A stretch of DNA of 64,000 bases from Petrosia ficiformis. Taxonomy: Eukaryota > Porifera > Demospongiae > Haplosclerida > Petrosiidae. Numbering within the stretch: the stretch's first letter is position 1; each line of letters starts with the position of its first letter. Positions 1-58,799 of this stretch are shown in pieces. Both the position numbers and the translations under genes were made by a program. The notes below the pieces were generated by a model that saw nothing but the letters and a program-made list of their open reading frames with translations, searched no databases and had not been told where the DNA came from. The stretch covers positions 6,346,347 through 6,410,346 of the forward strand of contig OX345641.1 of assembly GCA_947044365.1 (NCBI GenBank), given 5' to 3'.

Positions 1-1059
1 CATATCTGAAACCCAATAACATAATAAATATCCTACAAATACACATGTAGTCATACCCATATTCTGGTTATCAGTGTCATTACTGATGACAAGCTGTTAG
101 TGATACATTATAAAGTTCTCATTCATCAGATTATGATGAGCAACCTCTAGTTGAAAGTCATAACTTATATTGTTCATGTATTATCACTTCCTAACAGCTA
201 TTTGCACTCTATGGTATAATAATGGCTTGTTGAAACATTTCCTAATGGAGTCATTGGGCTCCACCTATTTAATTAATATTTATTGTATATAGCCCTTAAT
301 AAAACATTCCTGTACTGTAAATGTAGTACACACTACTACATGTATATCATCTACCATAGTACACATGCATTATGCATAGATACAAGATGGGGACTTTGGT
401 TTGCAAACGCTCACCTTGTTGCTTTTGTGCAAAATATGAAGGATTATTTTTGTATTCATAGGTCTTCCATCCAAAAAAAGGCAGTTAGAAGTTTGAGTTG
501 TTTGAACTGCGAGAGTCATAGAGGTAAGTCGTTTTCTAAAACACTTTCAGACAGTCGTCTTCATGTCTTCTGTACATAGCAATAAATAATTTTCAGATTC
601 ATGGCTTTATTAACAACTCTTCCTTGCAGTAAAGTAGGTTGGAATCTTTAGTTGTGTAAACTTTGAGGCTTATAAAGCTGACAAAACTACACACAAAGCT
701 AAATAAATTTATGGGTTATGATCATGAATCTGTTAATTTATGCATTTTTAACACATTATCTAGGTACTAATGGTGTATTACAATAACACTATACACATGT
801 GTACACATAATGATATGTACTTGTGTAAATGTATGCACTCAACTGTGTACATATGGATATCATTATGTTCATACATATATTCATAACAAACCTATCTTCA
901 TGAACAGTTATGTGTGGTAAAGTTAAATAACAAAAAGCTGGTCCCATTTAGCAAGAATATACCAGAATGAAGATACTGCTTCAGGTGTTCAATGGACAAG
1001 ATTAAAGAGCTTGTATCCTTAAATGATCGACAAAAACTTCAGTAGAGCATTTCTGACTG

Positions 1060-1370
1060 GATAGATGGATGGATGGATGAAAGGATGGATGGATAGATAG
1101 AGGGAAGTATGGATGTATGGATGGATAGATGCAAATATGGACAGACACATGGACAGACACATGGACAGATAAATGGACAGTTGGATGGATAAACAAATAG
1201 ATTAGTGGATAGCATAATGGACTGAGAAAAAGATGGATGATAGATGGATGGATAGCTGGACAGATGGAGAGATAAACGGATGAAATGGATAGATGGATAA
1301 GTGGATGAATAAAAATCACTTATCCCCAAAAAAGCATAGAGATTGACATGGATGGAAGGATGTGGACAGA
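1060..1370. repeat. TGGA tetranucleotide array
   Basis: Imperfect TGGA/TAGA/CAGA tetranucleotides run for about 300 bases, all with the purine-rich strand on plus. The minus strand reads as His-Pro-Ser-Ile open frames, which come from the repeat and are not genes. Confidence 0.9.
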
Positions 1371-1651
1371 TACGTAATGTAAGTGTATATGTAAGCATAT
1401 CTACTAAAGTCAGTCAAGTCACCAGCTTGTGTTTTGTTTAACATGCAAACCCAAATATTACATACAAAGCAAGTAGAATCTGAATAGTATCACTAGTATA
1501 TAGAATCCAAGTTGAATCAATGATTCTACTAAGATATATAAAAGTCATTCTACTTGTAGATTCTACTACTATTGAAGTTACTGATACTTGCAACTTCAAC
1601 TGCATTAATTACTGGATTTGATTTTGTGTATGTGTGTCATATTCAGAACAA

Positions 1652-1664
1652 ACCATGGACAATC

Positions 1665-1705
<41 letters not shown>

Positions 1706-1738
1706 TTGTTTCGACCTATTGGGTCTCATCAGCATGGT
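1652..1738 (-). ncRNA. Hammerhead ribozyme (type I, helix III capped by a TA microsatellite)
   Basis: Read on the minus strand. Helix I 5' side is ACCATG (1738-1733). The core CTGATGA follows at 1732-1726. Helix II is GACC / GGTC (1725-1722 with 1716-1713) around a 5-base loop. GAAA is at 1712-1709. Helix III pairs 1709-1701 with 1667-1659 (nine pairs including A15.1-U16.1), and the bases between are a self-complementary TA tract. U16.1 is followed by C at 1658 as the H17 cleavage base. Helix I closes with CATGGT (1657-1652), six pairs with 1738-1733. All invariant core bases of the family are present. Cleavage is predicted between 1658 and 1657. Hammerheads of this topology are known from retroelements, including Penelope-like ones, but no partner ORF is visible beside it. 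Confidence 0.85.
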
Positions 1739-1740
1739 GT

Positions 1741-2719
1741 AGCCCAATTTTACAATTCAATACATTGCTATATCGGACAGAATGACACGCATATTGTATG
1801 TTATAATTTTGACCTCATTTTTGAAGAGGGATCTTCTCCCGAAGAATAATTTGGTCAAATGCTTACCTTCAATCATTGGCTATTCCACAATATTGTACAG
1901 GAGCTCAATGAAATTTGGTCCAGGAAAAGCTATTATTAAATTTCAAATGTTGTTGGATTCCTATATAAAATGGCTGAATAACATGTGAATATGTATACAT
2001 GTAGGTAAGCATTTGATCAAAATTAGTTTAATGTAAAAAAGGCCTAGCTCCTTTTTGAACATTAGGTCACAATTATAATGTATATATAATTATTAAACAA
2101 AAATATAAAAGTGGAAACAAGCATTATCATACATATTGACACGTGTACCAATCATCTGGACTCCTGTGTGGGAGTGGTCCTGTCCTTTCTGTAGCTACAA
2201 GTAATGACAGGTCAGGAGAAGGGACCAAAACCTGTTGACCTAGTAATTACTGGATCGGAAACTCCCTTGATGACCAGAATTAAGAATTGAATTATAAAAC
2301 AAGCCACCAAGCACTATATATAATTTTAAAATCTAATTTATCATTATGAAAATGTATGGCTTTAAATTACATGTAGTATGTTAGCTAAATAAAATATCAA
2401 TTAAATTTCAGATACTAGTACCATTGAAGCTTTAGCGGAAAAGTTACTTCCTGGTTAGAGAGAGACCTGTCATTCAGTTGGGAGTCATTCACCACAGAGC
2501 CACCTGTTCATTCAGCATTGGCCTGAGGATCTGACAAACATGTACACCGTCTCTTTTTCTTAAACACACACATGTACAAGTGTATGTGTACATGTATGTT
2601 ATTAAACAAGCAAAAATGGGTCAAAGGCTTTATTCCAGCTTAGCAATGGTAAGTCACATTACAATACAAATACACCACATGAACATGATTATGTCTACAA
2701 AACATACATACAAAAAATA
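1741..2719. other. Non-coding stretch, no gene seen
   Basis: AT-rich sequence with short open frames only (up to about 70 codons), none resembling a known domain. It lies immediately upstream, on the minus strand, of the hammerhead ribozyme. I could not recognise a retroelement protein in it. Confidence 0.5.
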
Positions 2720-2724
2720 CTAGC

Positions 2725-2890
2725 TTGTAGAAACTGGAACTAATAGCTTTTTAGATGAAGATGCTTCACAAAAGTTATTCAAGATAAGAACAGTGGAAAC
2801 CAAATAACTGTGATAGGGTATTGAGTCAGTAATGATAACCGTAAAGTAATCATAGGGATACCTTTTTGTCCATATACGTATCTTGTTCCA
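2725..2890. repeat. Partial copy of dispersed repeat R
   Basis: It shares the blocks AGAAACTGGAACTAATAGC and ATCATAGGGATACCTTT, in the same order, with 62825-63030. The related copy at 48570-48745 shares the first block and a diverged form of the second. The 5' CpG-rich part of that family (62596-62780) is absent here. Confidence 0.5.
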
Positions 2891-2919
2891 TATTGAAATT
2901 AACATAGCATACACCGTAT

Positions 2920-4135
2920 ATGGATGGATATACGGATGGATGTATGAATGGATAGATGAATGGATGGATGGATGAATGTATGCATGAATGTATGGACTGA
3001 TGGATCAATGAATATGTAGACTGGTTACATGGATGGATGGATGAATGGATGGATCAATAGATGGATAGTTGGATGAAATGTATGGATGGATGGATAGATG
3101 ATGGATAAATAGATTGACGGATGAATGGATAGATGGATGGATACAGTGTAGATAATGGGTGAATAGACAAATGGATGGATGGATGGATGAAATGGATAGA
3201 TGGATAAATCAACGGATGAATGTATGGATGGATGGATCAGTGGATATGTAGACTGGTTACATGGATGGATGAATGAATGGATGGATCAATGGATGGATAG
3301 TTGGATGAAATGTATGGATGGATGGATAGATGGATGGGTGGTTGGATAGATGGATGGATGAAATGGATAGATGGATGGATGAATGGATGAATGTATGCAT
3401 GAATGTATGGACTGATGGATCAATGGATATGTAGACTGGTTACATGGATGGATGAATGAATGGATGGATCAATGGATGGATAGTTGGATGAAATGTATGG
3501 ATGGATGGATAGATGATGGATGAATAGATTGACGGATGAATGGATAGATGGGTGGATACAGTGTAGATAATGGGTGAATAGACGAATGGATGGATGGATG
3601 GATGAAATGGATAGATGGATAAATCAACGGATGAATGTATGGATGGATGGATCAATGGATGGATAGATGATGGATGGATGGATGGATGTATGGATGGATG
3701 TATGGATGGATGAATACAAGTGCTGAATTGATTAATGGTTGATAGACGGATGCAAATATGGTCAGATACATGGATAGATACATGTAAATTGACAGTTGGA
3801 TGGATAGACAAATGGATGACTGACTAAAAAGCAGAATGGACAGAGAAAAGGAGGGATGATAGATGGATGGATAGCTGGACAGATGGATGAATGTGGATGG
3901 AATGGGTAGATGGATGGGTGGATAATAGATGGATTGATAGATGGACGAATGGATGGATGGATGAAATATACATGTACATGGTTACAAGAATGGATGAATG
4001 AATAGAAAGATACACTAGATGGATGATCGGTAGATGGATGGGGAATAGATGGATGGAAATAAGTGTAGATGGTACTATGAATGAATGGAAAAGGGATAGA
4101 CGGAATGGATGAATGAATGGAAATTAGAGCTGAGC
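2920..4135. repeat. TGGA array with higher-order repeat structure
   Basis: TGGA-type tetranucleotides for 1.2 kb. On top of the 4-base unit there is a longer period of about 410 bases: a block with 'GTAGACTGGTTACATGG' occurs near 3014, 3247 and 3431, and the block from 2977 recurs from 3387. Minus-strand His/Pro/Ser/Ile frames are repeat artefacts. Confidence 0.85.
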
Positions 4136-5280
4136 AATAGCGAAATTTTTAACTATCACAATTTAATAGATACACTTGTATTTGAACGACAGTCAATACC
4201 ATCATGATAGTCAAACTACATGTATAATTTGTATACATATTCTGTTTATCTTCCATTTGTAGCAGAGAAACCAAGTACTCCACAAACCACTGTTAGAGCC
4301 CTCCAACAGAAACACTTGCAGCTCTTCAATCTTAATTAACAAGAACTATTCGTCGCTATCTTCTCATGTTTGATCACGTGGTTGTGGGAAAGTTGAGGCA
4401 AGACAATGTTAAATGCACATGCCCATAACATGTCCATTAACATGATAGTCACACTATTGCTACTATCACCCAGTCCTAAATGGATGAATGGATGAATGGA
4501 TGAATGGATAGATGGATGGATGTATGGATGTACATGTATGTATGGACTGATGGATGATACTGATTGGATATTAAACATTAAAACTCACCTCAATTTCATG
4601 AGGTAAACCTTGTAACTTCAAACATAAAGAAGAGAATTCTTATCATGTAGAATGAATCTGGTACTAAAAGGACATGTACACTTACATGTACATGAACGCT
4701 TCATAATGATTATCTCCAAAACTCCTGCCAGATGAGAGAAGGCGAATTAAAGAAACATTATAATAGAACAATATAGAAAATATAAATGATTATAGTATTC
4801 ACTATTAATCATTGCTCCAAAAATAACTGTGATTTCCCCAACAGTATTTTTGCTGAGGTGTTGAACAAAATGCTATCATTCCCTGATTAATTATTTCTTA
4901 CTTTCAGTCATTTTATACACAATGATATATTGTATTCAGTTAGAGTAGTCATTAGGCATTTTAGTAAACACATTTTACTGGCTTCTTGTACAAAATGGCT
5001 GAAGGTAAGAAATTCCTCAAATCATTATACAAGCAATGATACCATTCTAAGTCATGTGACATATGATAGTATGGTATTATATAAATAGGATATACATGTA
5101 GGAAGGAGAGTATCATGTGTAATGATACCTAAGTAATTACAGAGATGTTATACTTTAAGAAGACTGATACATGAAGAAAAAAAGCATCTATGATTGGTGA
5201 TTACAATACATTTATTTTTTCTCATTTATTATTCTATGATTGCTTTGTAATAACTAATAATTATTGATGATGATTATCTC
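4136..5280. other. Non-coding spacer of unit 1
   Basis: No gene is visible. A short TGGA array is at 4480-4560. The stretch 4570-4800 is paralogous to 9600-9790. Bases 4137-4190 resemble 8825-8880, marking another internal duplication boundary. Confidence 0.5.
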
Positions 5281-5431
5281 ATATCTGAAACCCAATAACA
5301 TAATAAATATCCTACAGATACACATGTAGTCATACCCATATTCTGGTTATCAGTGTCATTACTGATGACAAGCTGTTAGTGATACATTATAAAGTTCTCA
5401 TTCATCAGATTATGATGAGCAACCTCTAGTT

Positions 5432-6044
5432 ACCCTCGCCGCGTAGCGTAGGCGGAAGGGTACGGTAATCGTTTTGTCTGTGTGTCTGTGTGTGTGTTAG
5501 CAATTTTTCTGGAAAAATAAAAACATTGACATTTCAAAAGGGGTACTGGTAGACTTCAAATTATACAAGGAAAAAAAATAACGTAGGAATTCTTCTTAAA
5601 CCTTTCGGTTATAAAGTTATCACAATGTTTATAACTCACGGTTACTGTTTCCAGACTTGAGAAGACTCGTGGAGGCATCTGGACACATCAAAACATAACT
5701 ACTCCTGTATCATGACTATCGCTAGCAAAGCACTACATAAAAGCAAACAAAATTTGGGTAGTGGTTGCTACAACATCGAGTACTGGCTCCAAGCATTCTC
5801 CATTACTTTCAAACTCCGCCTATTTGTATTTTTCAAAGTCATGTGCTGTGCACTTTACTCGAACGTCAGCAGTTTTGAGGACTTGTCTATGCTGTCTTTG
5901 TGGAATATTTCACAAGACGAATTGAGGATCATTCTTTCTTCTTTCAGATAATACAGAGACTAAAATGTAAGACTTATAGTATAGACAAGGAAGAGACTAG
6001 TATAATCATACTAAGTAATAAGTAGTGACATGTTAGTTTATATA

Positions 6045-6086
<42 letters not shown>

Positions 6087-6306
6087 ATATCTATTATAAT
6101 ATTATTATAAAAACTAACATGCCAGTACGGTTTTATAACTTAATATGTTTTATACACAAACTAAACAATCTGAAGTAAACATTCTCATTATTATATGACC
6201 ATACAAACGAGCAATGATAATTATAATCTTTTGGCATATTATATTTCGAAATTATAGTTTGTATTACCTTGCCACGTAGGCGAGGGTCCCGTCCCGACGG
6301 CGCTCG
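5432..6306. mobile_element. Roughly 875 bp insertion element, ends ACCCTCGCC / GGCGCTCG
   Basis: Unit 1 preserves the uninterrupted site (CTAGTTGAA at 147-155), so the boundaries are read directly. TT occurs on both sides (5430-5431 and 6307-6308), suggesting a very short target duplication. The left end ACCCTCGCC is matched by an inverted GGCGAGGGT near the right end, followed by about 19 GC-rich bases ending CGGCGCTCG. The inner part has TG-rich sequence after the left end, a 79-codon frame of unknown nature (5712-5951) and a TA microsatellite at 6043-6084. A second copy of the right end, inverted, is at 46586-46640. Confidence 0.8.
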
Positions 6307-6739
6307 TTGAATGTCATAACTTATATTGTACATGTATTATCACTTCCAAACAGCTATTTCCACTCTATGGTATAATAGTGGCTTGTAGAAACATTTCCTA
6401 ACAGAGTCATTCACATAGTTGCTATATATTATTAAGAGGTTTGGGCTCCACCTATTTAATTAATTATCTTTTTTCTATGACAAATATACATCTGGATGTG
6501 CAGTATGTAGATGTACATGTACACATAGTGATATCTATACAATATACACATTTGGATATTATTGTGTTCATGCAGTTGTGTACCTTCGTGAACAGTTATG
6601 TATGGTAAATTTAAACAAAAACAGCTGCTTCCACATAGATAACAAGGGTATACCAGAATGAAGATACTGCTTCAGGTGTTCAGTGGACCAGATTAAAGAG
6701 CTAGAATCCGTAAATGAGTGACAACAACTTCAGTACAGC

Positions 6740-7045
6740 ATTTCTGACTGGATGGATGGAAGGATGGATAGATGGATGGATACACAGATGGATGGATGGA
6801 TGGATGGATGGATACACAGATGGATGGATGGATAGAGGATGGATGGACAGATGGATGAATAGATGGATGGATAGATACATAGATGGATGAATGGGTAGAT
6901 ACACAGATGGATGGATGGATACATAGATGGATGAATGGGTAGATACACAGATGGATGGATGGATGAATGAATGGATAGATACATGTACATACATGGAAGG
7001 ATGGATGGATGAATGGCTGCATGGATGGATGCATGGACAAATACA
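6740..7045. repeat. TGGA tetranucleotide array
   Basis: Purine-rich strand on plus, equivalent in position to the 1060-1370 array of unit 1 and preceded by the same flank (CTTCAG...CATTTCTGACTGG). Confidence 0.9.
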
Positions 7046-7239
7046 GGAATAGATGGCTGTGCTATAACTTTGTATCTGAAATGTATTGATGTCTACATAT
7101 GTTTTCAACTCTGCAATGGTCTCGTACTGTTATGTTCCTTGCCTAAGACTATATAAGTAGAAGATGATTTCTGAGTAAACAGATTTTATAAGAATTGTTC
7201 TATCCATTAATTCAATTTACCACAGGCTGAATGGAAAGA

Positions 7240-8820
7240 AAGATGGATGGATGGATGGAAGGATGAATCTATGGATGGATAGACGGATGTAAATATGGAC
7301 AGACACATGGACAGATAAATGGACAGTTGGATGGATAGACAAATGAAGCAGTATAGACGGAGAAAAGGATGGATGGATAAATGACAGATGGATGGATAGA
7401 TGGATGAATGAATAGACAGATGGATGGATGGAAGGATAGACGGATGGTTAGACAGAAAGATAAATTGATAGATGGATGGGTGGATGAATGGATAGATGGA
7501 TGGATAGATAGATGGATAGATGAATGGATAAATGGATAGATGGATGGATAGACAGAAAGATAAAAGGGATGAAATAGATAGATGGATGTGCAGATGGATG
7601 GATGAATAGATGGATGGATAGACAGAAAAATAAATTGACAGATAGATAGATAAATGGATGGATGAATGGATGGATGGATGATGGATGGATGGATGGATGG
7701 ATGCACAATGTATGGATGTATGGATAGATGGATGGATAGACAGAAAGGTAAGATGGAGGGGTGGATGGGTGGATGAATGGATGAATGGATTGATGGATGG
7801 GGTGGATGAATGGGGTGGATGAATGGATAGATGGATTGATGGAGAGATGGATGGATACATCCATCCATCCATCCATCTATCCATCCATCCATCCATCCAT
7901 CCATCCATCCATCCATAGATGTATGGATAGATGGATAGATGGATGGATAGACAGAAAGGTAAGAGGATGGATGGGCGTATGAATAGATGGATGGATGGAT
8001 GGATAAAAGGGATGAAATAGATAGATGAAGCAATAGATGGATGGATGGATGGATGGATGGATGTTTTGACAGATGGATAGATAGAAAGATAAAATGGATG
8101 TAATAGATAGATGAATGGATAGATGGATGGATGAATGGACAGATGGATAAGGGATGGATACAGTGTAGATAATGGATGGATAGACCAATAGATGGATGGA
8201 TAGATGGATGGATAGATAGTAAGAAAAAAGGGATGAAATGAAAAAATGGACGGGTGGATGGAAGGATGGATTAATGGTTGTATGAACGATGGATGGATAG
8301 ATAGTAAGATAGTAAGATAAAAGGAAATGGATAGATGGATGGATGGATGGATCAATGGATGAAATGGATAGCTGGATGGATGGATGGATGGATGGATGGA
8401 TCGATGGATGAAATGGACAGATGGATGTATCAATGGATGAATGGGTAAATGGGTGGATAGATGATGGATGAAGTGATAGATGCAAATATGGACAGACACA
8501 TGGACAGATAAATGGATAGTTGGATGGATAGAGAAATGAATGACTGAAACCAGAATGGAGGGAGAAAAGGATAGATGATAGATGGATGGATAGCTGGACA
8601 GATGAATGAATGATGGATGGATGGATGAATAGATGAATGGATGGATGGATAGATGGATTGATAGATGGATTGATAGATGGATGGATGGATGGATGAAATA
8701 CATATGTAGATGCTTGCAAGAATAAATGGATGAATAGACAGATACTAGATGGATGATGGATGGATGGATGGGGAATGGATAGATGGAAATAAAACAAGAT
8801 GGTACTATGAATGATTGGAA
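7240..8820. repeat. Large TGGA tetranucleotide array
   Basis: The longest array in the window, about 1.6 kb of TGGA, TAGA, CAGA and AGGA words. Because the minus strand rarely forms stop codons, it yields a 549-codon His/Pro/Ser/Ile frame; I treat this as an artefact. Confidence 0.9.
7858..7918. repeat. Inverted patch inside the TGGA array
   Basis: For about 60 bases the repeat switches to ATCC on the plus strand, then returns to GGAT. The switch makes long self-complementary arms with the sequence on either side. Confidence 0.85.
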
Positions 8821-9039
8821 ATTAGAGGTGGGTGATAGTGAAATTTTAACTATCACGATAATTAATACATGTATTCATAACAAACCTACCTCCTGAACAG
8901 TTATGTATGGTAAAGTTAAATAACAAAAAGCTGGTTCTATTTAGCAAGGGTTATATTAGAATGAAGATACTGCTTCAGGTGTTCAAAGGACAAGATTAAC
9001 GAGCTTATATCTATATATGATTGACTGTAGAGCGTTTCG

Positions 9040-9590
9040 GACTGGATAGATTGATGGATGCATAAGATGTATGGATGGATGCATAAGATGGTGGGTGGAT
9101 GGATAGATGGGTGGATGGATGAGTGAATGAATGGATACATAGAAGTGGTGATAGATGGATGAATGAATGAATGAATGAATGGATGGATGGATGATTGGAA
9201 GGATGAATAGATGGTGGATAAATGGTTGGGTTGAATGATGAATAGATGGATGGATGCATTGATGAATAGAAATATAGATGGTAATATGAATGTATGGAAA
9301 GATAGATGGGTGGAGAGATACATGTACTAGTAGATGGATGGATGAATAAAAATGAATGATGGAAGAATTGATGCATGAATGACTGGGAATATATATGATT
9401 GTACGAATGGACGAATAGATGAATGTTACTGTTCATGTATGTAATGTACATGTCTAAACAGATGGATGAACGGTAAGATGGATAGTTGTATGAATGGATG
9501 AATGGATGGAAAGACAAATGAAAGAATGGAAAGATTCATGTAGATAGATGGATGCAGGAACGGTGAACGGATCGGTGGATGGATTACACT
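9040..9590. repeat. TGGA/TGAA tetranucleotide array
   Basis: More degenerate array with many TGAA words, in the third copy of the flank sequence. No gene. Confidence 0.8.
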
Positions 9591-9920
9591 GATTGGACAC
9601 TAAAACAGTGAGAAGACCTTCATTCCATGAGGGAAACCTTGTAAATTCCAAAAGAAAGAAGAATATTCTTAACAGGGTGAATGAATCTAGTACTAAAAGG
9701 TTTTGATGTATGCGATTGTCTCCAAAAGCTCCTGCCAGAAGAGAGAAAGAGAATTGAGGAATGTAAAGAAACAACAATGTAGGAAAAATAAATACTTTGT
9801 AATCACTATTAATTATTGCTGATGACATTTTCATTTCGGAGACACAAAAACATAATATTATTATCAGATAGTATGATAGTACTATCTATGTAGGGATGAC
9901 ATGGAAAACAATAGTCACCC

Positions 9921-10040
9921 ATACATCCATCCATCCATACATCCATCCATCCATCCATACATCCATCCATCCTTTCATACATCCATCCAACAATCATCCA
10001 TCAATCCATCCATTCATCCATCCATCCATCTATCATCCAT
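9921..10040. repeat. ATCC array in opposite orientation
   Basis: About 120 bases of ATCC on plus, the reverse polarity of all the arrays between 1 and 9.6 kb apart from the small patch at 7858-7918. Confidence 0.85.
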
Positions 10041-10487
10041 CACAAATACAAATGATTACTATTCAACTATGTATTTTGTACAGGAAGACAATTTAAATAT
10101 GATCTGAAGCCCGCACCTACTAGATACCTAATATTAAAATGGTTGAATAGCAAGCATTCATATGTACATGTAACAAGAGACATCTAATTCCGTTCAAACA
10201 TAATCTAATAATAAAACTACTACATACACACATCAACTTATTATAGGATTATAAAAAGGGTTTGCTTGTTACCACACCCACATTTATAATTGATCATGCA
10301 CATTATTACAATCTGCTTGTATTGTTATCATGTGGTGTGTTTAAAGAAAGGTTGAGTCTTCCCTAATACATACACTCATGTACATGTACAAACACACATA
10401 CATAATAATGATACATATACATTACATACATCCTGTACATGTACTTCAGTATGATATATGACAATGATCCAATATAGACCAGTGAAA

Positions 10488-10656
10488 AAGCACAGGAACA
10501 ACATGGCTTTGGCAACAAAATGAAATACCACTTCTACATAACAACCCTACATAAGTATATACAACTTACGTCACAAAGAAATGATACTTATGTACGGTTG
10601 TTATGTGGAAGTGGTATTTCATTTTGTTGCCAAAGCCATCTTGTTCCTGTACTTTT
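10488..10656. repeat. Palindromic element, about 70 bp arms
   Basis: Arm 10488-10558 (AAAAAGCACAGGAACAACAT...) is the inverted copy of 10583-10655 (...TTGTTCCTGTACTTTTTC). The right arm with its following flank (10560-10710) recurs at 53998-54135. Confidence 0.8.
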
Positions 10657-11699
10657 TCAGTTTAATTATATATCCCTACATACTCTTTCATTTTTTAAAA
10701 TGTTTTTTATATCAATTTTAAGATCAAGAAGAAGTCTAATTACAAAATCTGAAATACTTTTTATATTAGCTGACTTGCATGCTTACATGTTTACAATGGT
10801 ACAATAAAGTCTCTAAATTATTTACAATAGATACAATGATTGATACTAAACTGGATATACATATACAATAACACAATGACTCATTGTTCTATTTAAGACT
10901 GTTATAACACAGACATTGCTACTTGATGAAAGGTCCTAACTCTTTGTTAGTGCATGATTACACTGTATGATCACATGATTTTTAGGGTACGATTATGATC
11001 ACGATTATGATTACAATTACAACAATTGTGTAATTGATTACCATCAATTACGATTATACTCATAATAGGCCCCAACCCTGTCTCAGACCACAATACAATA
11101 AAAACAAACATACTATTAAAGTAATGTCCTACACATGATACAGTCTGTGTATCTTACTTCTATAATTACATAGTTGTATTGTGGCAACTGGTTAGGTGTA
11201 TATTTTGCAACATCTCATCAAAACTTCCATTGTTAAATCTGTTCACTATATCAAGCATGGCTAGTTGGTACAGTGTATACATGTATATATACTGCATATA
11301 CATGTTCCACCTGTTAGAGTTCAGAGGTTTATGTGGATATATAGCTCAACCCTACAGGCATCAGATTATATTGACATAAATCTCTTATAGATGGTATATC
11401 TGGTATACACACCACCTAACCATGGTTTATACTACAATATAATATATATGTATATATACATGTGTACATGTATATATATGTATATATAATTATATATCCC
11501 GATACGGCGAAACATCAAAGTAAACCACAGCGATATATATAAGATATAGCACCCTGTGGTCAGATATAGCACTGCAGTCAGCAGATATAGCACTGCGGTC
11601 AGATATAGCACCTGCCGTCGAAACAGACTACAAGAAAACAACACTTACCTTCTCCAAAATGCCGACAAAAAGGTAGGAAAAGCATCAGACATCAACAAA

Positions 11700-11825
11700 G
11701 GTTTTGTCTTTCGTGATATATATTGGTTATATCACAGCCACTCGTGCTATACCACATTTATAAAAACCTCGCCCTCGGGCTCGGTTTTTATAAATCTGAT
11801 ATAGCACTCGTGCTGTGATATAACC
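11700..11825. repeat. Palindromic repeat with GATATAGCAC arms
   Basis: Sequence around CCTCGCCCTCGGGCTCGG folds on itself; GATATAGCAC/TATATCAC words on both sides relate it to the P1 palindromes. It is preceded at 11555-11610 by three direct repeats containing AGATATAGCAC. Confidence 0.6.
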
Positions 11826-11829
11826 TATA

Positions 11830-11847
11830 CATAATATATATATATAT

Positions 11848-11890
<43 letters not shown>

Positions 11891-11940
11891 ATATATATAT
11901 AATATAAATATTTATATATATATACATATGTATATGTAAT
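11830..11940. repeat. TA microsatellite
   Basis: Alternating TA with a few interruptions; reading frames through it (Tyr-Ile repeats) are not genes. Confidence 0.9.
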
Positions 11941-12107
11941 ATATATAGTATGCTAAAAGGTCCTATGTATATACAAAATATAAGACCTGAGTTTGTGTCC
12001 GACGATGTGATATAGCCCAAGCCTGCAAGGGCTATATCACATCCGGAGGACACAAAATGAGGATCCTATATGCAGTATATAGGACCTATTAGCATACTAT
12101 ATACAAT
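11941..12107. mobile_element. P1 palindromic element
   Basis: Ends TATAGTATGCTAAAAGGTCC and its inverse GGACCTATTAGCATACTATA; the centre is GTGATATAGCCC...GGGCTATATCAC. Nearly fully palindromic, non-coding. Other copies are at 12232-12390, 29536-29690 and 53311-53462. Confidence 0.75.
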
Positions 12108-14900: not shown

Positions 14901-17900
14901 ATGGATATTAGGGAATTGGTATGTCAGTATACATGTACATAATACATGTGTATGTGAAATGTGTGTACATAATTATTATTACTGATCACCGGTAATGGAT
15001 CATGTTTTAATTATGATTATGTGTGGATGAATACTTTTATTAAATATTTCACTAGTCTTGTGCAATCTAAACATTTTGTGAATGTAACTTGATTATATAT
15101 AATAATAGAAAGATATTGAAATTAAACTGCTAAATGAAAAGAGTAAATGAGTATTTGAACAATGTCCACACTTCTATTGACTATGATTAACTCATAATCA
15201 TAGAAATTAATTATAAACTTGTTATATCATGTGACTCATGATATAACAAGTTTAATAATTTGGTAGTATTATACATTTGTACTATACTTAAAGTCAGGTA
15301 ATTGAATTCCTCACCAGTACTAAACTAATAGTACATTACATATATTCATGTAATAGAGTATATAAATGTACTAACTTGAGATATTTTATTAATTATAATA
15401 AATAGAACAAGTTTGTGATCTGTTTTCTTATTAATTTCTTAGTAAAAATTATAAATAAATTTTATATTATATTATTGTGATCACTTTAGAATGAACAGTT
15501 ATATGATGCAGTAAGTGTTGGTGAAATTCACAAAATCAAAGATGCAATTACTGCAGGAGCAGACATTAATGATACTACTAGTTCTGTGGTGAGTATATAT
15601 CATGATCAATATTATAACATAACTGTAACAACTAAATATTGTAATCTTATCATCGACGCCTACAGAAAGAACATTGTACCTGGGCAAAGTCGGCACATGA
15701 AGCATGGCAAAACTTTTAGTTTGTTTAATTATATTCATGATTGGTGTGATCTAGTGTTGTTTTAGTTTGACAATGATGAATACTTTTAGTTATAGTTATA
15801 GTGCGCTTGGTTTCTCAAACTATTAGTTATGGTTATAGTGAAATAACTAAAATAATATTAGGCTTACTAAAAGGGTTTTAGTTTTAGTTAACTAACTAAA
15901 AGTATCTATTATTGGCCATATTTCATTTTAGTTAGTTATAGTTATTACAATAGATCAGCTATTTAGTTAACTAAAAGTCACAATACCTTACTAATAGGTT
16001 TAGTTATAGTATATATACACTTCCACATCCATCCCAGCTTTTATTTTAGGTAAAACAGTGTAAGTAACATACTTTCTACTGGGCAACTGGTACCTTGGTT
16101 CCAGACAGTGAAGTAAACAGGTAAAACCAACATCCTCTACAATGGAAAAAGGCTGTGTATCGAGGGCAATCATCTCGTCAATTAGTTGGTGTGTTTTCTT
16201 TGCTCTGGGATCGTTTATGTCCCATACTTTAACGTGATCTTGACTTTCTTCTAAGCTAATCTGTCTTAAAGGTTTGGCTTGCCTTATCTCTTTCCTTTTA
16301 GCGTCTTCATCCTCCTTATTCTTCAGATATTCTGAATACTTACTACGATTACACGATTCCAGGTGCTTTACAACATTAGTAGTTGAGTAGCTCTTTTTGT
16401 CTTTCCCACCACGGGCAACAGATTTGTTGCATAATTTACAAATGGCAAACCTTTCATCACTAGCAACTTCAAAATACTCCCATATTGGTGAACGCTTAGC
16501 CATTATGAGGAATTGATAACGTCTTGACGAACTTTAACAGTTGTAGAAAAATACCCACGTGGCTCCCGTTACTGCGCATGCGCAAATATAATAATTTTAT
16601 TTCAATAAAATTCAATACAGATATTTACCGATAAACATGATATCGGTACCGATCCAATTATTAGACGGATAATCGGTACATCTTTACTGTATACCATATC
16701 TCCTGGTCTCATCCTCAGCCACCCACTCACTTAATATGTGAGAAATGGCAAATTCCTTGATATTAAGGCTGATATCAGACTAACCTACGAGAATGTTCAT
16801 GTACATTTGTGATTTCATGATATTATAACACAATAACAAATATAATATTATAAACTAAAAACCTTCACCATCAGTTGAAACTAATGGCCATCCTCAGTTT
16901 CAATTAATTTCATTCATTATATATAACAGTGATAATTCATGAGGTTAATACTCCTCAACTAATACTAATAACACATGAATACAATTAAGTCAACTGTATG
17001 AAATATCAACCAAGATATCCTATTCATGTGTAACTTATACCCAAAACTACATTTAATTAACTATTATAATTATAAGAGTCACCAAGTTGTATGTCACAAT
17101 TGTTCGTTCTTTACAGTACTAATTATAACTATTTATTTCTCTTTCAATATCAGTTCGGATGGGCCCCTCTACATAGAGCTGCAATTAACAATAATATTGA
17201 AGTAGCTCGTGTGTTAGTGGAAGCTGGCGCTAGTATTGATATTATTAATGAGGTAATGATCTGTTTTATATTAAACAAACTACAAATGTGTATGATAAAT
17301 TGTGTAAACTAATTATATCTTCAGATATATATTGTGAACCACATATATTTCACAGTATTCATGGTTTCAAATTACAGTGACTATCGATATTGTCATGTTC
17401 ACTTGAACAACATAATTGTATGTCTTCTACAATAGACACAATTTATAGTGTAGTGGACCTAATAATTATGAATAGTGTTACAAACTGGGCATGCTCAGAT
17501 TGCCTCATGTTAAGTTCTCCTCATGATATATATTTTGTGTATGTTCTTTTTGGATCCATTATAATCTTAGTTAGGAACATACAGTATGTATATACAGTAC
17601 ATGTTAGGTATAGTAGAGTACTAGATTACTATAATTGTATGAATTCAAGGCAATGCAATCATTTTTATAGCTAACATACTCTAGCTGATGTATAATGTAG
17701 TATGTTATATTTGTATCTCTCATATAATGAAACAATACTCACAGACTGAATTATGATTTGTATTGTAAGGTTGCTATAGCAACATACTTCTGTCATGTGA
17801 CTGCATAGTATACAGTGCAGCAATAAAATAATTGGTCAGGTGACTTCTGGTGTTATCAGAAGGAAAGAATTCCGGATCCTTAGCCATAATATAAAATAGC

Positions 17901-20900
17901 TAATTCTTATAATGTACATCATGTGTACAAATGTACTATGTGATATCTAATGAATATTACTGATAAGATACATTCTGATATTTCATAATACATGTACCTG
18001 AAAATAATTGTTACTATAATTTCTATAATGTCTTGATTTCTGATTTACACCCTCTATAAATCATCACCATCATTTCAAACTAATGATCTTCCTCACCATC
18101 AATTATTATAATAGTTGTAATCCATTAGGTTAACACTTGTTATACATGAATACAATAAGTGAATATCTATTTGGAACATCAACCAACATATTATACATGT
18201 GACCTTGAACACAAAATTACATTTAACTATAAGTGTATCATGATCACAAAGTTTAGTGTGTTATTTACTAAATACTACATGTACTAATTATAAATAATTA
18301 TTATCTTGTCTTTCTATATCAGGATGGATGGAGTCCTCTATGCATTGCAGCACACCTCAATAATGTTCAAGTTGCTAGTGTTCTTATGGAGGCTGGAGCA
18401 GATCTAGAACTACCTAATAACGTAATGATTTATTTCATACTAAACACACTACAGATGTATTATATAGTTTATGTACAATTGATTGAATCTTCAGATATGT
18501 GAACCACATTTATTTTATAGTATGGCTTCATAATGTATAATGTACTACACTAGACACATGATAACATAATATTATAATGAATTCTGTGGTTGAGTCTGTT
18601 ACTGTATGGCAGAATATTTTCATCCAGTCTAATTTTCATATTTTTCGTGATACAGAACAATTTCATGAATATTTAACTCACAAAAAGTTATTGTCATGGA
18701 TGGAGTTTGAGCAATATCGATTTAAAAACGAAAGTTTGAGCCACAAAAATCAAAAATCGATGAAAACACGAAAATTAGACACCACGAAAATATCCTGCTA
18801 TACAGTAGTGTACAGCACTAGATTACAATATTATAATCTAAGTGATAATTAAGGATTTTTAGTTGTACATGTTCATACTCAATCATGATATTATTTATAT
18901 TATATGGTTTATATAAATATTATACTAGTTGATTGGGTAATATACAGTATAAGGGGAAAAAACGTCACCGAAGAGTAGAGGTAACTACGGCGCAACTTCG
19001 CTATAATTCTACTGTGAACGTGTTGAAAGTTCGCCGTTAGTTCGGTTAAACTGCGTTCTACGTTTGTGGGGGTACTTCGTTGTGTAAATTAATAATAATT
19101 AATTTTACTTAAGGCCGTGTCTATCGAAGTACACGTGATAGCATCATAGTCGGCTGTGGCAGTGTGGCTAAGCATGTCTTTAAGAAAGCAGCTTAAAGAA
19201 TTGCAAGAAAACTCTGGTGAGTTGCTTATAGGTGTTATTATAATGTATACTAGAGTTTTTGATGGTCTTCCCGATCCTGGTTGATGCCCGATGCTCCCTG
19301 TCTTCTCATACTTTTTCAAAATGTTAGCAACTCCACTTCTGCTTGCTGTTAATCCTTCATTCTTTCAAAGTCATGAGATGGTATAAGAATGCTTGCTAAG
19401 ACGTGAATGATACAAAATCCTTTGTTGTTTGTAGCTGCTATAAACCATCGCGGTAGATATTCAATTAGTATAAGCAAAGATAAATTATTTTAGCGCTATG
19501 TAAACTGTTTACATAGTATGGATTCATGACGTAATTGTTTCGCATGAATGATGTTAATTTATAATTGACCGCAGAACTACCTTTGAACTACTGTTTAAAC
19601 TACTCCGCAGTACTAGGAGTAGTACTGCGTAATTACTCTTCGGTTCGGCGATGTTTTTTCGCCTTATACTGTATCTACACTACTATCCAATATGAAGAAA
19701 CATCCTTTTTGTTCTTGTACTCTAACTGATGTTATACATGTATGTATCATTTTGTATTATTAGCATATCCAGTTTAAAATACATGTACTGCATGAAAATA
19801 TCTTTTACTAATTTCTATCACTTTTTGATTAATATCATGAAATCCTCATCATCATTTCATACTAATGCTCTTCCTCAGTTTCAATTAAGTTGTTTTATTA
19901 AATAATTTATTTGTTCTCTTCTAATATTGATAATTCATGAATTAATACTCAAATAATATAATAATACATGAATACTATAAATGTAATATCAATCAAGATT
20001 TCATGTACATGTGGAAATTGTACCTAAATATTCAATAAGTACTGTTCTAATTATTATGACTATTTATTTTGTCTTTTCACATCAGTATGGATTTGGAAGG
20101 TCTCCTCTCTGTATCGCAGTAGATAGGGATAATGTTCAAATGGTTCGTTTGTTGATTCAGGCTGGTGCAAAGACAAATCTACCTAATATGGTAAATTTAT
20201 TAAACAAACTACAAATGTGTATGATAATTAAAATATAGTTTGTGTACAACTAATTACATGAATCTTCAGGTATATATTGTGAACCATATTTATTTCACAG
20301 TGTGGTTTCATATATATGTATAAGTCACTATCTACATTATCATGTTCAGTTGAACAACATATCTTTTGTACACAGACACATGATGATAGTAACATCATAT
20401 ACTCCCTGTAGTTTAGCATTACAATATGTATGCTAGTGGAATTAGTATAATTATAACAATCCAAACAAAGTTGAGGATTATTATGCTATGTACTGTTTAA
20501 CTGATATAAAGTATGTTGTACATGTATGTCTTATATAATATCCCATAATGTAATCAATTAATATTATGTATGGTTTCTATTGCAACTTGGTATTAAACAG
20601 AACATATTGAAGCAATTAGTATGAAGTGGAAGTGTAGTAATGTTGACTGTGTTGATTATGTTCTATACTATTAACAATGAGTTGATTGTTATTGAGTTAT
20701 TGTAATGGTGTATGCATATAGCCAATTATCTATATTATTGTTTTATAGTCCCATTGTCTATGTAAGGGCAGCAGCCCTAGTTTCTGTATCTACATGTATA
20801 TAAGCTGCATTTTTATTCAAGAGATTTAGTCCAGATTTCACTAAGGCAGTTAATCCCTGTTGAGGTTACTATACATAATTGCCAACGAGGATGGCTACTT

Positions 20901-23900
20901 TATTTGGACATGTCGGGGAATTCGACAATAATAGGAAGAATGGATACAGTATGTAGAACAACTAGACCAAGCAAATGGCATTACTGCAAACAATTGGAAG
21001 AGAGCTATTCTATTGCTACAATAGGTCCCATGACCTACAAGACACTAAGGAATGTTGTAATGCCCAGAAAACCAGAAGAGATGTCATACCAAGATTTACT
21101 GGCTGCTATGAAGACACACTATCGTTCAACACCATCGGAGATTGTGCAACGATTTCGATTTAATAGCAGATCGTCACGTACGTGGAATAAACGATCCAAA
21201 TACACATGTGGGAACGCCTACTATTATCTGAGGTCAACTTAACTTTCCAGAAAGCCTTTGAGATAGCACAAGGACTGGAATCAGCAGTTCAGAATTTAAA
21301 AACACTTTTGCCTTCCAAGGAGATTCATAAGGTGGAAAAGACAGTTAGCACTCGTATATCTGTGGGAAGAGTAATTGTCGGCCCAAGTCTCATGGGTAGG
21401 GATTGGTTAGCCGTTTTCCATCTCAACTGGAAAGAAATTTATTATATTGAGAACTGTTCGATACAAAGTGTTCTGCAATCCACATGTCGTACCTCATTTT
21501 TGTTAGTCTAGGACAGTGCCGTATGCCTTGCGTGCTAGGGTAGAGGATGAGTTAGAGAGATTGGTGGAACTGGGAGTATTAGAGCCAGTCCAGTTTGCAG
21601 ACTGGGCAGCACCAATAGTTCTGTGCATGAAGAGCGACAAGTCATCAATAAGGATTTGCGGAGATTTTAAAATAACGATAAATTGTTCCATAAAATTGGA
21701 TCAGTACCCCTTCCCAAAAATTGAGGATCTATTTGCTAAACTCTCGGGTGGAAAAATGTTTACTAAGCTTGACCTAAGCCAAGCTTATCAGCAGGTTCGA
21801 TTGGATGCAGCATCAAAGAAGTTAGTAGTGATTAACACTCGAGAATTGTTCCGATATTATCGTCTGCCCTTTGGTGGTGTATCATCAGCACCCGAAATTT
21901 TCCTGTACCCTTTCTACTGCCGAGAAGAACTAGAGAAAGAAGGACACTCTTGTGTATTTGGAGTGAAGAGGTTTCACTCATTCCTGTATGGACACAATTT
22001 CACAATGTGTACAGATCATAAGCCTCTTCTTGGTCTGATAGTTGAGCACTGTTCAGTGCCTGCTCAAGCTTCTGCAAGGATCCAACCTGTTCAGTGCCTG
22101 CTCAAGCTTCTGCAAAGATCCAACGCTGGCCTTGCTGTTGGAACAATTGCAAGAAAGCCCTGTGTCAGCAGAACAAATAAACATCTCGACTAGTCCAGGT
22201 CGTTATTTGTTCTGCTGACACAGGGCTTTCTTGCAATTGTTCCAACAGCAAGGCCTGCGTTGGATCCTTGCAGAAACTTGGACTAGTCGATGTTATACCA
22301 TCCCAGGTGTTGTGATATGTTTTGAGTGGATGGCCAGATACATGTGACAATGATGTACTGAAACCATTTTATAGTAGAAGAATGGAGCTATCAACTCAAG
22401 CTGGGTGCCTGTTGGGAAACAGAGTCATTGTTCCTCTGCCTGGTCATCAACTGGTCCTGGATGATCTTGACCATATACATGTGACAGTGATGTTCTGAAA
22501 CCATTCTATAATAGACGAATGGAGCAATCAACTCGAGCTGGGTGCCTGTTATGGGGAAACAAACAAGAGTCATTGTTCCTCCGCCTGGTCGTCAACTGAT
22601 CCGCCTGGTTTTTAACTGATCCTGGATGAAGTTCATGAGGGACATCCTGGAGTCCAGGATCAAGAATGAAAAGCCTCGCTTGTATGTTTGTGTGGTAGGA
22701 TGTTTTTGGTAGGATGTTTTTGTTAGCTATTGATGCTCATTAAAAATGGATGGAGGTGGATACTATGAATTCAACTACTATTGATGGTCATTAAAAATGG
22801 ATGGAGATCGATACTATGAGTTCAACTACTTTCTTGGCTACTATACAATCGCTTCACAACATGTTTGCTCGTTTTGGGTTATCTGAGCAGGTCATCACTG
22901 ACAATGTACGTAATTTTGTTAGTGAAAAGTTTAAAGAGTTCCTCCATGGAATCAAACACACTACCTCTGCCACATATCGTCCTTCGACTAACGGATTGGC
23001 TGAACATGCTGTTCAAACGTTCAAACAAGTACTAACAAAACTAAAGGAACGTACAATTAATGAACATATATATCTCGATTTCTGTTCAACTACCTACAGA
23101 ATTACCCCTCAATCAAGAACAGAAACTTCTCCTGCTGAACTAGAAACTTTGGATATGGTTCCAGATGGATACTTGGATTGCTAGTGGAGAATACAGGACC
23201 GCTCTCTCTCTTTCAAGATTGAATGTGAAGGAGGAAGAATCTGGTGTCGACACGTGGACCATATTAGGAGACGCCTGGATGTCGTACCTGACCGAACCTA
23301 CAGCTTTAACTTCTATCGAAGCTCGCTACCCTTCTCGGGACAGGAAACCACCCGACCGTTACACGTATACCTCTTAGGAGGAAGAGATGTAGTAATGTCG
23401 ACTGTATTGATTATGTTCTATACTATTAACAATGAGTTGATTGTTATTGAGTTATTGTAATCGTGTTTGCATATAGCCAATTATCTATATTATAGTCCCA
23501 TTGTCTATGTAAGGGCACCATGCAGCCCTTGTTTCTGTATCTACATATATAGAAGCTGCATTTTGATTTAGTGCAGATTTCACAGTATCATTGTTGGGGT
23601 TACTACAGAAAGCATTTAGTAATGATAATTATTTGTATTTTCCACTTTCTAATAATGAAATATGTCTTCAGCTTTAATTATTGCCTTATAATGTTTATAT
23701 CAGGATTTATATGAGCAAGTGATTACTAACATTAATAACAATTATAAATTGTCTACAATATTATCAGTGAATACTAATTTAATTGTTGAGTTCACAACTT
23801 TATGAACTTTATGGGCAAAGCTTCATAAACTAAAAAGCTGAAATGTTGGGTTATTCATTATATCATACTCCAATCCCTGACTGTTTTCTAGATTAGTAAC

Positions 23901-26900
23901 CTACATGTATCATGTTCACTTGAATGATATAACATTTATATACTAGACATGTAATAATACTAACATGTATAGTATTTTATGATTGAGTATTCTTAATGTT
24001 AATATGACATTGAACCAATTGAATTGAATTTCATAAATTATGAAACTATCTAAAGAAGATGATAATTATTAATTTGTATTCACTAGTAATAAGGAAACCC
24101 TTGTACTGTACTGTATATTATGTACTTGTAATTGTTTTCTTCATGTAAACACATTAATGAATACATGTACATGTGTAGTAACAGTATATAGTCATAAAAG
24201 AGTCATTACTTCATATAAGAAATAGCTATATTACATATTCAAAATAGTATAATACTTATATAAACCACATAATACAATAATTTCATGCTTGAATAAGAAC
24301 AAAAACATCCTGATATAACCCTAACAATGTCAGTACTCCTAACATAATTCTTATATCATATAAGACTATATAAATGTACCAAACTGTAGTGATAATTATT
24401 ATCATAATTAAAAATTAAATAACTGCATATTAAATATTCTATACTATAGGATGGTAAATATCCGCTTGACTATGCAAGGACACAAGAAATGAGAGAAGCA
24501 CTTCTTGAAAAAGGTCAGTTCAGTTTAGTCATTTAATCATCATATACATATTGAATACACACATGTAGATGAACACAGGTATTGATACAAAAGTTGGATA
24601 CTCCCAAATATCATATTAATCATATTTCTATTGCTTGTACACATAATACATAATGAAATATTTAACATTAATTTATAACATAACATAATTCTCTATAGGT
24701 GCTTATTTATATCACATTATGTATAGTACGTATGTATATGAATTTATTATGTATAAATCAGTGGCAGATCCAGTAGGTCCTTGGGTGCATTACACCTCCT
24801 TTTCTACTCATGAGATTCAAAGCTACTTGATAGTGTAATATTTGATATTTTAGTGACAAAAATTTGAAAGGAATTATCCATGAACCTCGTGTTGTATATA
24901 ATTACAAGTATTTAAATTGTGTAATACTAAACACATACATGTATAGCCACACCTTCATGAATATTAAATTTTAATATAAGTTAAATTTGTCTACTGCACA
25001 TTCATTATATTACACCTTTTCAGTCACTATGGACCCATTATATAAATACAAATGGCATACCTTTGACTAATTAAATTTATCAACCTGCTTATCTACTTCT
25101 GTTTGTGTATAATATTATTTATATACATATGTAATATAGGTCTGATTGAGGTATTTTGTTCAGGATAATATGGCATTATAGGGCATCCCTATTCAATGTA
25201 GTACTAATCTCATGGGATATTTGTATTCATGGATGCATCCATAGGCGTATTTATACCCGGGCAGGCACGGGCATTGCCCAGGTAAAAAAAAAATAAAGTG
25301 CTTTGTTTATTTTGTCTCGGTGCGTACCACATGTATATAGGCGCGTAACGCGCGTTATTTAATTGAACTGCAGTGCATGCCACGCGCCTATATATATAGG
25401 AGGAGGGAAAACGCTCATAAAACCACATTATAAAAACTGTCAAATATTGATAACAACAAAGTTTATATACTGCAAATGATTGATGATTGGTGACCTTTGA
25501 GGATCCATATTCAAGGGAGGATGAGTGAGTAAAATCAATAGCTGAAGTAACTACCAATGATGGAACGTAGAACATGTACTAAAAAAGAACAGTACAGAAA
25601 ATAATTATTATCTAAATTAATGTTAAATTTGCCCAGACTCACAAGAATGCTAAAATAACTCTTCTTTGATGCACTCGACTTTATCAGTTATGTCAGTATG
25701 TCAGTTATAATAATAATTATATATCACTCCCACTAATAACTTTAATAATCATCAATAACCACTTAATAACCTTTATTGATTGCGATTAATTATCATGAAT
25801 AATTAATGAGCCCTGGTATGTACTCAACCCTAGATACGCCTATGGATGCATCTAGAGAGTTTTGAGATCTATAATTCTACAGAATGATTATAAATGTGAC
25901 TGAAGTTTATAAAATGAGAGTAAATGAATCACTTGATTTTCTATTCTCCATTTCAGAGAACAAAGCAATCTTCTCCCATGCAATGCAAGAAGGATGGGTT
26001 GACATCAATATCCTCAGGATAGCAATCATGGGTCCTCCTGCGACGGGAAAAACCTCTTTCCTACATCTACTATTCGACTGGCCCGCTCCTACACATCATC
26101 ACAGTACACCAATTGGTAATCGTCCAATACGTGCCATTCAAAGAGTAGCTACTCACGATGAAGGGAATGTATGGAGTACAGTTGGCATCCCAGAATTAAA
26201 TCAAATGATGGCAGAAGCTGCTCGATTACTTCGTTCCTCAGGTGGAAGAAAGATCGCACTAACCTCCAGTCAACAACAGACCGATATTTCCCAGCTCACA
26301 TCTGAAGTTGGAGATAATCCATCATGTATTGAGGGAGAAGCAAAATTATGTAAAGATCAAGTGACCCTTCCAAATACAACACAAACAATACAAAAACGAT
26401 CATCTCTTCCTACTCATACAGATATAGATGATGAGGATGTTGTTCGTTCCAAATTAATTCCAGATCCTTCACACTTCCCCAAAGAAGTTCTTCAATCATT
26501 AGCACAAGATAAAACATCAGGTGCTCTCTATGAATCTACCTGGATCAATGTTTTAGATAGTGGTGGACAACCACAATTTGCTGATATATCACGAGTCTTC
26601 ATTCATGGCAATGTAATCAATATCATTGTCTTGAAACTAACACAACGTCTCAATGACAAACCTACGTTTGCCTACTCCATTAATGGAAAAGCATTGACTC
26701 AACCTGCTGTACTACAGATGACATATATACAACTCATACAATCATTTGTACGTTCCATCGTTTCCTCAAAGTACACAATTAGGAAAGGATTAGAATGGGT
26801 AAAGCCTTTATTCGTTATTATCGGTACCTACTATGATCATACACATGGTATCAAGGGTTTCTTCAAATCCATTGAGCCACTAGCAGAGAAGAATCAACAG

Positions 26901-43230: not shown

Positions 43231-43635
43231 CAAATATAAGAGACAAGATTTGGCTTATGGCTAGATCTAAAGTAGATGTTGTTGCAGCAAATGGTACAGT
43301 AGCCATTAATTCCCAGCAGTTCTATTAGACGTATGGACAGCTGTCCATAAATAATAATTTCTCCGATCATAAGTTTGTCTGAATTTCATTTTTGCAAGCC
43401 TTTAAGCTCCAAGACCAAGCAAGCAATTGTCATGAAACTTGTTATGTAGGGATATTACTTAGTATATTTTCTTACTATGGTGTAATAATTCGAGTTGCAG
43501 TGGTAGAGAGAGCACTATACCTTCCGAGTATGGGTGGTGTCTGATAATTGACTCTTTACTCTATAGGTCACATATGAATGTGAAATGACATAATATATAT
43601 AATATAATTCAGTATGCATGGTTACTGTGACATAC

Positions 43636-57833: not shown

Positions 57834-57999
57834 AATCTCACTGTTGTCAAGCAGAAGCCATAGTACTATGCTAATTAGTGTTTACTGTAAAAACATTGAA
57901 AATACAATTAGATGAGTGCTGGGGTTCGTTTTTACAGTGATATATAGGTCATGTATGAATGTGACATAATAATAATATAATTAAGTTATTGTGACATAC

Positions 58000-58702: not shown

Positions 58703-58799
58703 TTGGCTATTATATCTATTAAATCTGTATCTGATGAAGCCACATCCTACTGCTGAAGTCATTTTAAAATTCAGGCCCAATCATCAAGACAGGTCGTTT

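Follow-up and report, generated by a model that had tools for sequence, protein, structure and literature searches.

What is the element near the start of this locus, and why is it there? The window (the whole stretch of 64,000 nucleotides that was analysed, C6:6346347-6410346) comes from the sponge Petrosia ficiformis. The first-pass annotation had called a complete hammerhead ribozyme on its minus strand and had suggested that it belongs to a small retrozyme-like or Penelope-derived element. In the retrieved sections of the literature, animal hammerheads reside mostly in short tandem retrozymes or Penelope repeats, or are a few gene-embedded relics (PMC7229834, PMC6431247, PMC3088659, PMC6155905). 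The same sections describe hammerheads kept in introns and in a 3' UTR and propose their descent from mobile elements (PMC3088659, PMC6155905).

The features of the element are given below. The classes and aligned copies named there are described in the following paragraphs, and core positions (A15.1, U16.1, C17) follow the hammerhead numbering.

1643-1746, minus strand: complete type I hammerhead ribozyme including the outer stem (84.9 bits with a model built without C6 copies; RNA fold z = -5.05)
1742-1745, minus strand: 5' strand of the outer stem, GGGC, pairing with GTTC at 1646-1649 (fold)
1733-1738, minus strand: 5' strand of helix I, ACCATG (sequence; covaries between classes with the 3' strand)
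1726-1732, minus strand: core box CTGATGA (sequence; invariant in 46 of 46 aligned copies)
1713-1725, minus strand: helix II, GACC (1725-1722) and GGTC (1716-1713), 4 bp, with loop CAATA (sequence, alignment, fold)
1710-1712, minus strand: core GAA (sequence; invariant in 46 of 46 aligned copies)
1702-1709, minus strand: 5' strand of helix III, ACAATCTG, A15.1 first (sequence, alignment, covariation)
1667-1701, minus strand: loop of helix III, a 35-nt A/T repeat expansion with (AT)17 at 1668-1701, variable among copies
1659-1666, minus strand: 3' strand of helix III, CAGATTGT, U16.1 last (sequence, covariation)
1657-1658, minus strand: predicted cleavage bond between C17 (1658) and 1657 (from the place of C17 in the core)
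1652-1657, minus strand: 3' strand of helix I, CATGGT, 6 bp with ACCATG (sequence; between-class covariation)
1646-1649, minus strand: 3' strand of the outer stem, GTTC, pairing with GGGC at 1745-1742 (fold)

The minimum free energy (MFE) fold of 1746-1645 consists of the hammerhead junction and the outer stem. Its energy is -35.2 kcal/mol (z = -5.05, to which the A/T hairpin of this copy contributes), and 0 of 200 shuffled sequences were equally stable. Three further copies gave the same junction with z values of -2.47, -1.90 and -1.98, and 3, 10 and 9 of 200 shuffles, respectively, were equally stable. Thus, the MFE structure was the hammerhead junction, with three helices and both ends in helix I, in all four copies tested. 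Covariation and folds show an internal loop and the outer stem in helix I of the family copies, and the A15.1-U16.1 pair is invariant across the 46 aligned copies. The minus strand of the window therefore carries a complete type I hammerhead, predicted to be a self-cleaving RNA. Sequence, fold, covariation, a model independent of the C6 copies and 262 core matches in the genome all confirm the first-pass call with its elements and coordinates: helix I of 6 bp, helix II of 4 bp (GACC/GGTC), CTGATGA, GAA, U16.1 and C17 were all read from the sequence, and the cut predicted from the position of C17 falls at 1658/1657 as proposed before. Helix III does close, with 8 bp ahead of the A/T tract instead of the 9 bp claimed.

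A match to the Rfam hammerhead model, proposed earlier as a check, was not obtained at the curated cut-off. No hammerhead was reported when the 64-kb window was scanned at Rfam gathering thresholds. A permissive scan of positions 1-12000 detected RF00163 at 19.4 bits against a cut-off of 34 (E = 1.4), the match spanning 1738-1700. This score is low chiefly because of the (AT)17 tract in the helix III loop, which leaves the ribozyme itself unaffected. Copies with shorter loops reached 31.8-33.4 bits in a genome scan in which 73 of 18802 candidates were scored, and 33.8 bits in locus L070, so that all RF00163 scores observed (19.4 to 33.8 bits) are below 34 bits, a value that is a detection cut-off and not a structural criterion. 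We class the window element as a hammerhead despite its RF00163 score because every structural feature tested was present. A covariance model built from 24 copies outside C6 detected the window copy with 84.9 bits (E = 9.8e-17) and gave no second match with E up to 10 in the 64 kb. When the window copy was itself among the sequences of the model, it scored 92 bits, and the next match had 10.6. Applied to the C6 array described below, the non-C6 model detected the ribozyme with scores of 84.1-100.7 bits in 28 of the 29 array sources, corresponding to 27 of 28 distinct loci (L036 and L069 hold one and the same copy; L009 is the window copy). The sole miss was L017, where the ribozyme sequence is gone. 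The only match in the window at Rfam gathering level is a tRNA gene on the minus strand (62124-62052, 58.6 bits).

The first-pass annotation had also advised a search for other genomic copies, and these are abundant. The genome searched comprises 191.2 Mb in 29 contigs; the retrieved part of the description of assembly odPetFici3.1 gives 35 scaffolds, 191.25-191.27 Mb and a longest scaffold of 63,279,122 bases (PMC12648040). A core 31-mer with up to 3 mismatches matched 262 times (113 on the plus and 149 on the minus strand), its reversed control 0 times. A 39-mer with the ACCATG helix I gave 243 matches and a pattern favouring other helix I sequences 235; these sets overlap, and site-level analyses use the matches listed, about 100 per set. 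Helix I divides the family into two main classes, ACCATG/CATGGT and ACTGTG/CACAGT, which are two compensated base pairs apart. CACAGT was present in all 20 ACTGTG-class loci fetched (L077-L096), with an altered 5' strand in L095. An alternative helix II (exact pattern, other second pair, 5-nt loop) had 0 matches in the genome. Loop II reads CAAATA in three loci on C2, C1 and C13 (L097, L098 and L099); the helix I halves of L097 and L099 come from different classes, and L098 has lost its 3' half. A link to viruses was considered and dropped, as the core 25-mer had 0 exact matches in IMG/VR.

From these loci 48 distinct ribozymes were extracted and 46 aligned (alignment A5). L095 was left out since its altered 5' strand would break helix I, as was the minus-strand copy of L072, in which a helix III segment is duplicated; L049 (3' half deleted), L017 (ribozyme gone) and L097-L099 (6-nt loop II) are absent from the extraction. 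Standard pairs fill 98.1% of the cells in the 46 copies, compared to 19.6-39.7% when the alignment is slid. In 18 of the 46 copies both partners are exchanged at two pairs of helix I, giving 36 doubly changed cells where shuffles average 14.4; 0 of 500 shuffles reached the covariation score. The count of covarying pairs (2) and that of pair types show no excess over shuffles (483 and 500 of 500 reach them), so the helix I change is essentially one event between the two classes. Two pairs of the outer stem stay GC or GU in 93.5% of cells.

An indication of function comes from the array to which the window copy belongs. A 701-base query retrieved the window copy, 26 relatives on C6 (5.466-6.339 Mb, same orientation) and one on C14; among the C6 sites listed for the 39-mer, 26 of 27 lie on the minus strand and one is reversed. 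We aligned 27 of the 28 loci (26 from C6 and the one from C14, excluding L017) and collapsed them at 97% flank identity to 11 non-redundant copies. Only 2 of 54 ribozyme columns vary among these, compared to 222 of 400 flank columns (Fisher p = 1e-14), and the least variable flank window of the size of the ribozyme has 14 variable columns. The two parts of the ribozyme have mean identities of 99.1% and 100%, as opposed to 72.4% for the intervening loop and 80.7% and 76.9% for the flanks. The conserved blocks end close to the ribozyme, coincide with it and skip the helix III loop. Conservation above the surroundings, by which we would recognise a gene-embedded (domesticated) hammerhead, is thus present in the C6 array. 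As drift affected the flanks and the loop of helix III but spared the letters of the ribozyme, the fold is likely under selection for self-cleavage; gene conversion among the tandem copies is the less likely cause and could contribute in part.

To which transcripts such ribozymes might belong is indicated by copies on other contigs. The hammerhead of L071 is preceded, at a distance of about 1.57 kb, by an exon with the splice signals TTTTTTACAG before it and CCAG, then GTAACA at its end. The 66-aa peptide around this exon has 61 matches in the genome, of which 43 were checked (18 were dropped as short, overlapping or low-scoring) and compared with 56 listed ACCATG-class sites (C1, C2, C3 and two of C10). 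For 22 of the 43, an ACCATG-class hammerhead follows 1.4-3.5 kb downstream on the same strand; on C3 this holds for 13 of 14 checked copies, at 1.4-2.8 kb. The other 21 have no listed copy within 4 kb, some being far from any listed site. As the exon was taken from a hammerhead-bearing unit, the linkage shows a shared unit, not a function. Beside the window copy, a coding test flagged 174 windows, mostly microsatellites (best non-repeat window 2820-2940, p = 1.3e-5, uncorrected), and established no coding exon there or for the C6 array. Within the reach of these tests, the window copy thus agrees with the earlier remark that no protein gene is beside the ribozyme; related copies, by contrast, lie downstream of a coding exon.

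Elsewhere in the window, two minus-strand frames (43622-44353 and 57986-58780) encode Nucleotide-diphospho-sugar transferases (PF03407). Of the 25 genome matches to the second, 19 are spread over both strands of C6 5.44-6.41 Mb, and some have stops. Retroelement fragments occupy 20781-23184 on the plus strand, where the frame 21507-22193 has matches to reverse transcriptase (below cut-off) and RNase H. Further frames encode a BED zinc finger (16000-16533, minus strand) and a 604-aa protein that contains a GPPATGKTS motif and matches no Pfam family (25875-27689, plus strand). Long degenerate GGAT arrays at 2920-3963 and about 6700-9500 result in open frames rich in IHPS residues.

How the family spread was approached through the arrangement of its copies on C1, using the listed matches there, an incomplete set of 39 ACCATG-class sites (0-1 mismatch) and 86 sites of the other-helix-I pattern (0 mismatches). 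Among listed neighbours closer than 15 kb, 27 are convergent, 0 divergent and 3 on the same strand. Random placement would give 3.6 such neighbours, and 0 of 5000 strand shuffles reached 27 convergent pairs (maximum 16). The two classes are joined in 19 of the 27 listed facing pairs, which are spaced 0.57-12 kb, and further facing pairs occur among the matches listed for C2. In the region C2:5364566-5422415, four facing ACTGTG pairs occur in tandemly arrayed units about 17.5 kb long, each of which has a copy of a 434-aa frame. Repeat arrays other than the GGAT arrays of the window were seen upstream of many C1 hammerhead copies.

Two protein frames are associated with the facing pairs, the interiors of which, for the pairs listed, make up 0.24% of C1. 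Of the 22 matches that the 418-aa frame of L073 has in the genome, 5 fall within listed facing pairs. These 5 are among the six best; the remaining one of the six, at C1:34173588, lies outside all listed pairs. For the 434-aa frame of L076, 10 of 24 genome matches lie within listed facing pairs, namely the 6 best, all stop-free, and 4 of more distant similarity (27-29% identity). The remaining 14 fall into five places outside listed pairs. In all 15 framed cases an ACTGTG-class hammerhead is located upstream of the frame in the direction of the frame itself. Units E1, E3 and E4 have a long open frame 3' of the ACTGTG-class hammerhead on the same strand, an arrangement compatible with either an intron or a 3' UTR. 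Neither the 418-aa nor the 434-aa frame reached the cut-off of any Pfam family; the latter contains what we take to be a P-loop-like motif. Structure models of the framed proteins had pLDDT values of 32 (not used) and 59.8, and a PDB fold search with the better model returned 0 matches at E <= 0.001. PDB sequence profiles matched APS kinase and glucose-6-phosphate isomerase near E = 0.001, and neither assignment was convincing. Unit E3 also contains a transposase fragment (DDE_Tnp_1_7, presumably piggyBac-type), which is possibly a nested insertion. One unit is found in two near-identical copies on C1 and C2, which are alike for at least 960 bases beyond one hammerhead and diverge about 330 bases beyond the other; unit ends and target-site duplications were sought in these copies and not found. 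At 7087-7164 on the plus strand of L076, 0.8 kb beyond a facing hammerhead pair, there is a sub-threshold match to an HDV-type ribozyme (RF02682), with 36.2 bits against a cut-off of 44 (E = 0.0019). Judging by the facing pairs, the family may have moved as a gene cassette or together with one.

These arrangements bear on the mobile elements named in the first-pass annotation. A metazoan retrozyme, a tandem element of 170-400 nt with circular RNA expression, would account for a type I hammerhead in an animal, and retrozymes are known from many metazoan phyla, as stated in the retrieved part of PMC7229834. No tandem unit surrounds the window copy, however: at shifts of 120-699 the best 80-base window had an identity of 41/80, and repeats nearby are short-period only. 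Among the 110 sequences compared, the sole hammerhead neighbours were four distinct pairs, all of them facing, and a series of tandem units, each about 150-450 bp long and with its own type I hammerhead, was not observed. The retrozyme-like origin is therefore highly improbable, and we give even less credence to the terminal repeat of a Penelope-like element. Such elements do carry hammerheads (PMC6431247 and PMC6155905, retrieved parts), and of 16 GIY-YIG matches in the genome one lies 2.3 kb from a listed hammerhead copy and two more within 10 kb. Against this, neither a GIY-YIG domain nor the reverse transcriptase that would lie between hammerhead-bearing repeats was found in the frames scanned (at least 60-90 aa) between the facing copies of five units, and the two longest GIY-YIG frames (845 and 821 aa) are more than 100 kb from any listed hammerhead. 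Penelope hammerheads are moreover described as minimal and without helix III in the retrieved part of PMC6155905, whereas helix III here has about 6-8 bp.

Two other explanations take the facing copies as their starting point. The three-way junction could act at the DNA level, as a cruciform site for a transposase or recombinase with the ribozyme core being incidental, which would fit facing copies at both sides of the units. A cruciform site has no need of the unpaired CTGATGA and GAA, yet both are invariant in 46 of 46 copies, and the copies of the C6 array are not in listed facing pairs; we regard this explanation as very unlikely. Alternatively, a mobile or duplicating cassette would have the facing hammerheads as its frame, and any activity of theirs would belong to its life cycle; the copies on C6, C3 and C10 would then be leftovers, duplicated together with the DNA around them. 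The orientation statistics on C1, the near-identical unit copies on C1 and C2 and the presence of two protein frames within pairs that cover so little of C1 all argue for such a cassette. Passive leftovers would be expected to decay along with their flanks, but the C6 ribozymes did not, and unit ends or target-site duplications were not found. That the window copy is such a remnant seems to us rather unlikely.

We consider it probable that the window ribozyme is an RNA cutter acting in cis, which was duplicated with genes and then kept; both self-cleavage and this role are predicted. A minus-strand transcript would cut itself at 1658/1657 and so separate the upstream transcript from what follows, be it intron, 3' UTR or read-through RNA. 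The C3 copies illustrate this, since a cut in these copies, which share the strand of the coding exon upstream of them, would split the upstream transcript from the remainder. The family would have spread with gene-sized duplicating or mobile units, as the facing pairs around protein frames and the unit shared by C1 and C2 suggest, and copies may afterwards have been retained in arrays. Tentatively, and aware that it may well be wrong, we propose a wider scenario of a ribozyme-framed mobile cassette: opposed hammerheads, one per strand and often with different compensated helix I sequences, would enclose unclassified protein genes, and RNA transcribed from either strand could thereby cut itself at the frame, and single copies might later have been recruited as conserved RNA cutters in gene arrays. 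With hundreds of copies and selection visible within one genome, the purpose of gene-embedded hammerheads could be tested directly. The arrays and facing pairs would also allow testing whether gene-embedded relics derive from ribozyme-framed mobile units.

In the open-access literature (PMC, with most subscription papers outside it), we found no description of a sponge hammerhead, and the word 'sponge' is absent from the retrieved parts of PMC7229834 and PMC3088659. Compared with known systems, the family shares with Rfam RF00163 the core, the three helices, the GUC cleavage triplet and an open helix I with internal loop and outer stem. Its best scores are 33.8 bits for RF00163, 29.8 for RF02275 (HH9) and 34.6 for RF03152 (RAGATH-1), against cut-offs of 34, 52 and 56.3. 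In contrast to the Rfam hammerhead models, its helix III, about 6-8 bp long, is closed by a loop that varies freely; in the window copy this loop is the 35-nt A/T repeat. With metazoan retrozymes, as described in PMC7229834 (retrieved part), it has in common the type I hammerhead, the animal genome and the many copies; it differs in that no short tandem repeat was found and that neighbours are facing and mostly kilobases apart. Penelope-like elements and Terminons, in the descriptions retrieved, likewise tie a hammerhead to repeated, possibly mobile DNA, whereas here the orientation is opposed, helix III is full and no reverse transcriptase was found between copies. The amniote intronic hammerheads (RECK, C10orf118/CTCL, DTNB) and the discontinuous Clec2 3' UTR hammerhead, which the retrieved texts describe as gene-embedded and propose to be mobile-element relics, resemble the C3 copies that lie downstream of a coding exon, a possible likeness in gene embedding that would concern C3 rather than the window copy. 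Those hammerheads are confined, in the same texts, to few genes, whereas the sponge family comprises hundreds of copies in tandem arrays and facing pairs.
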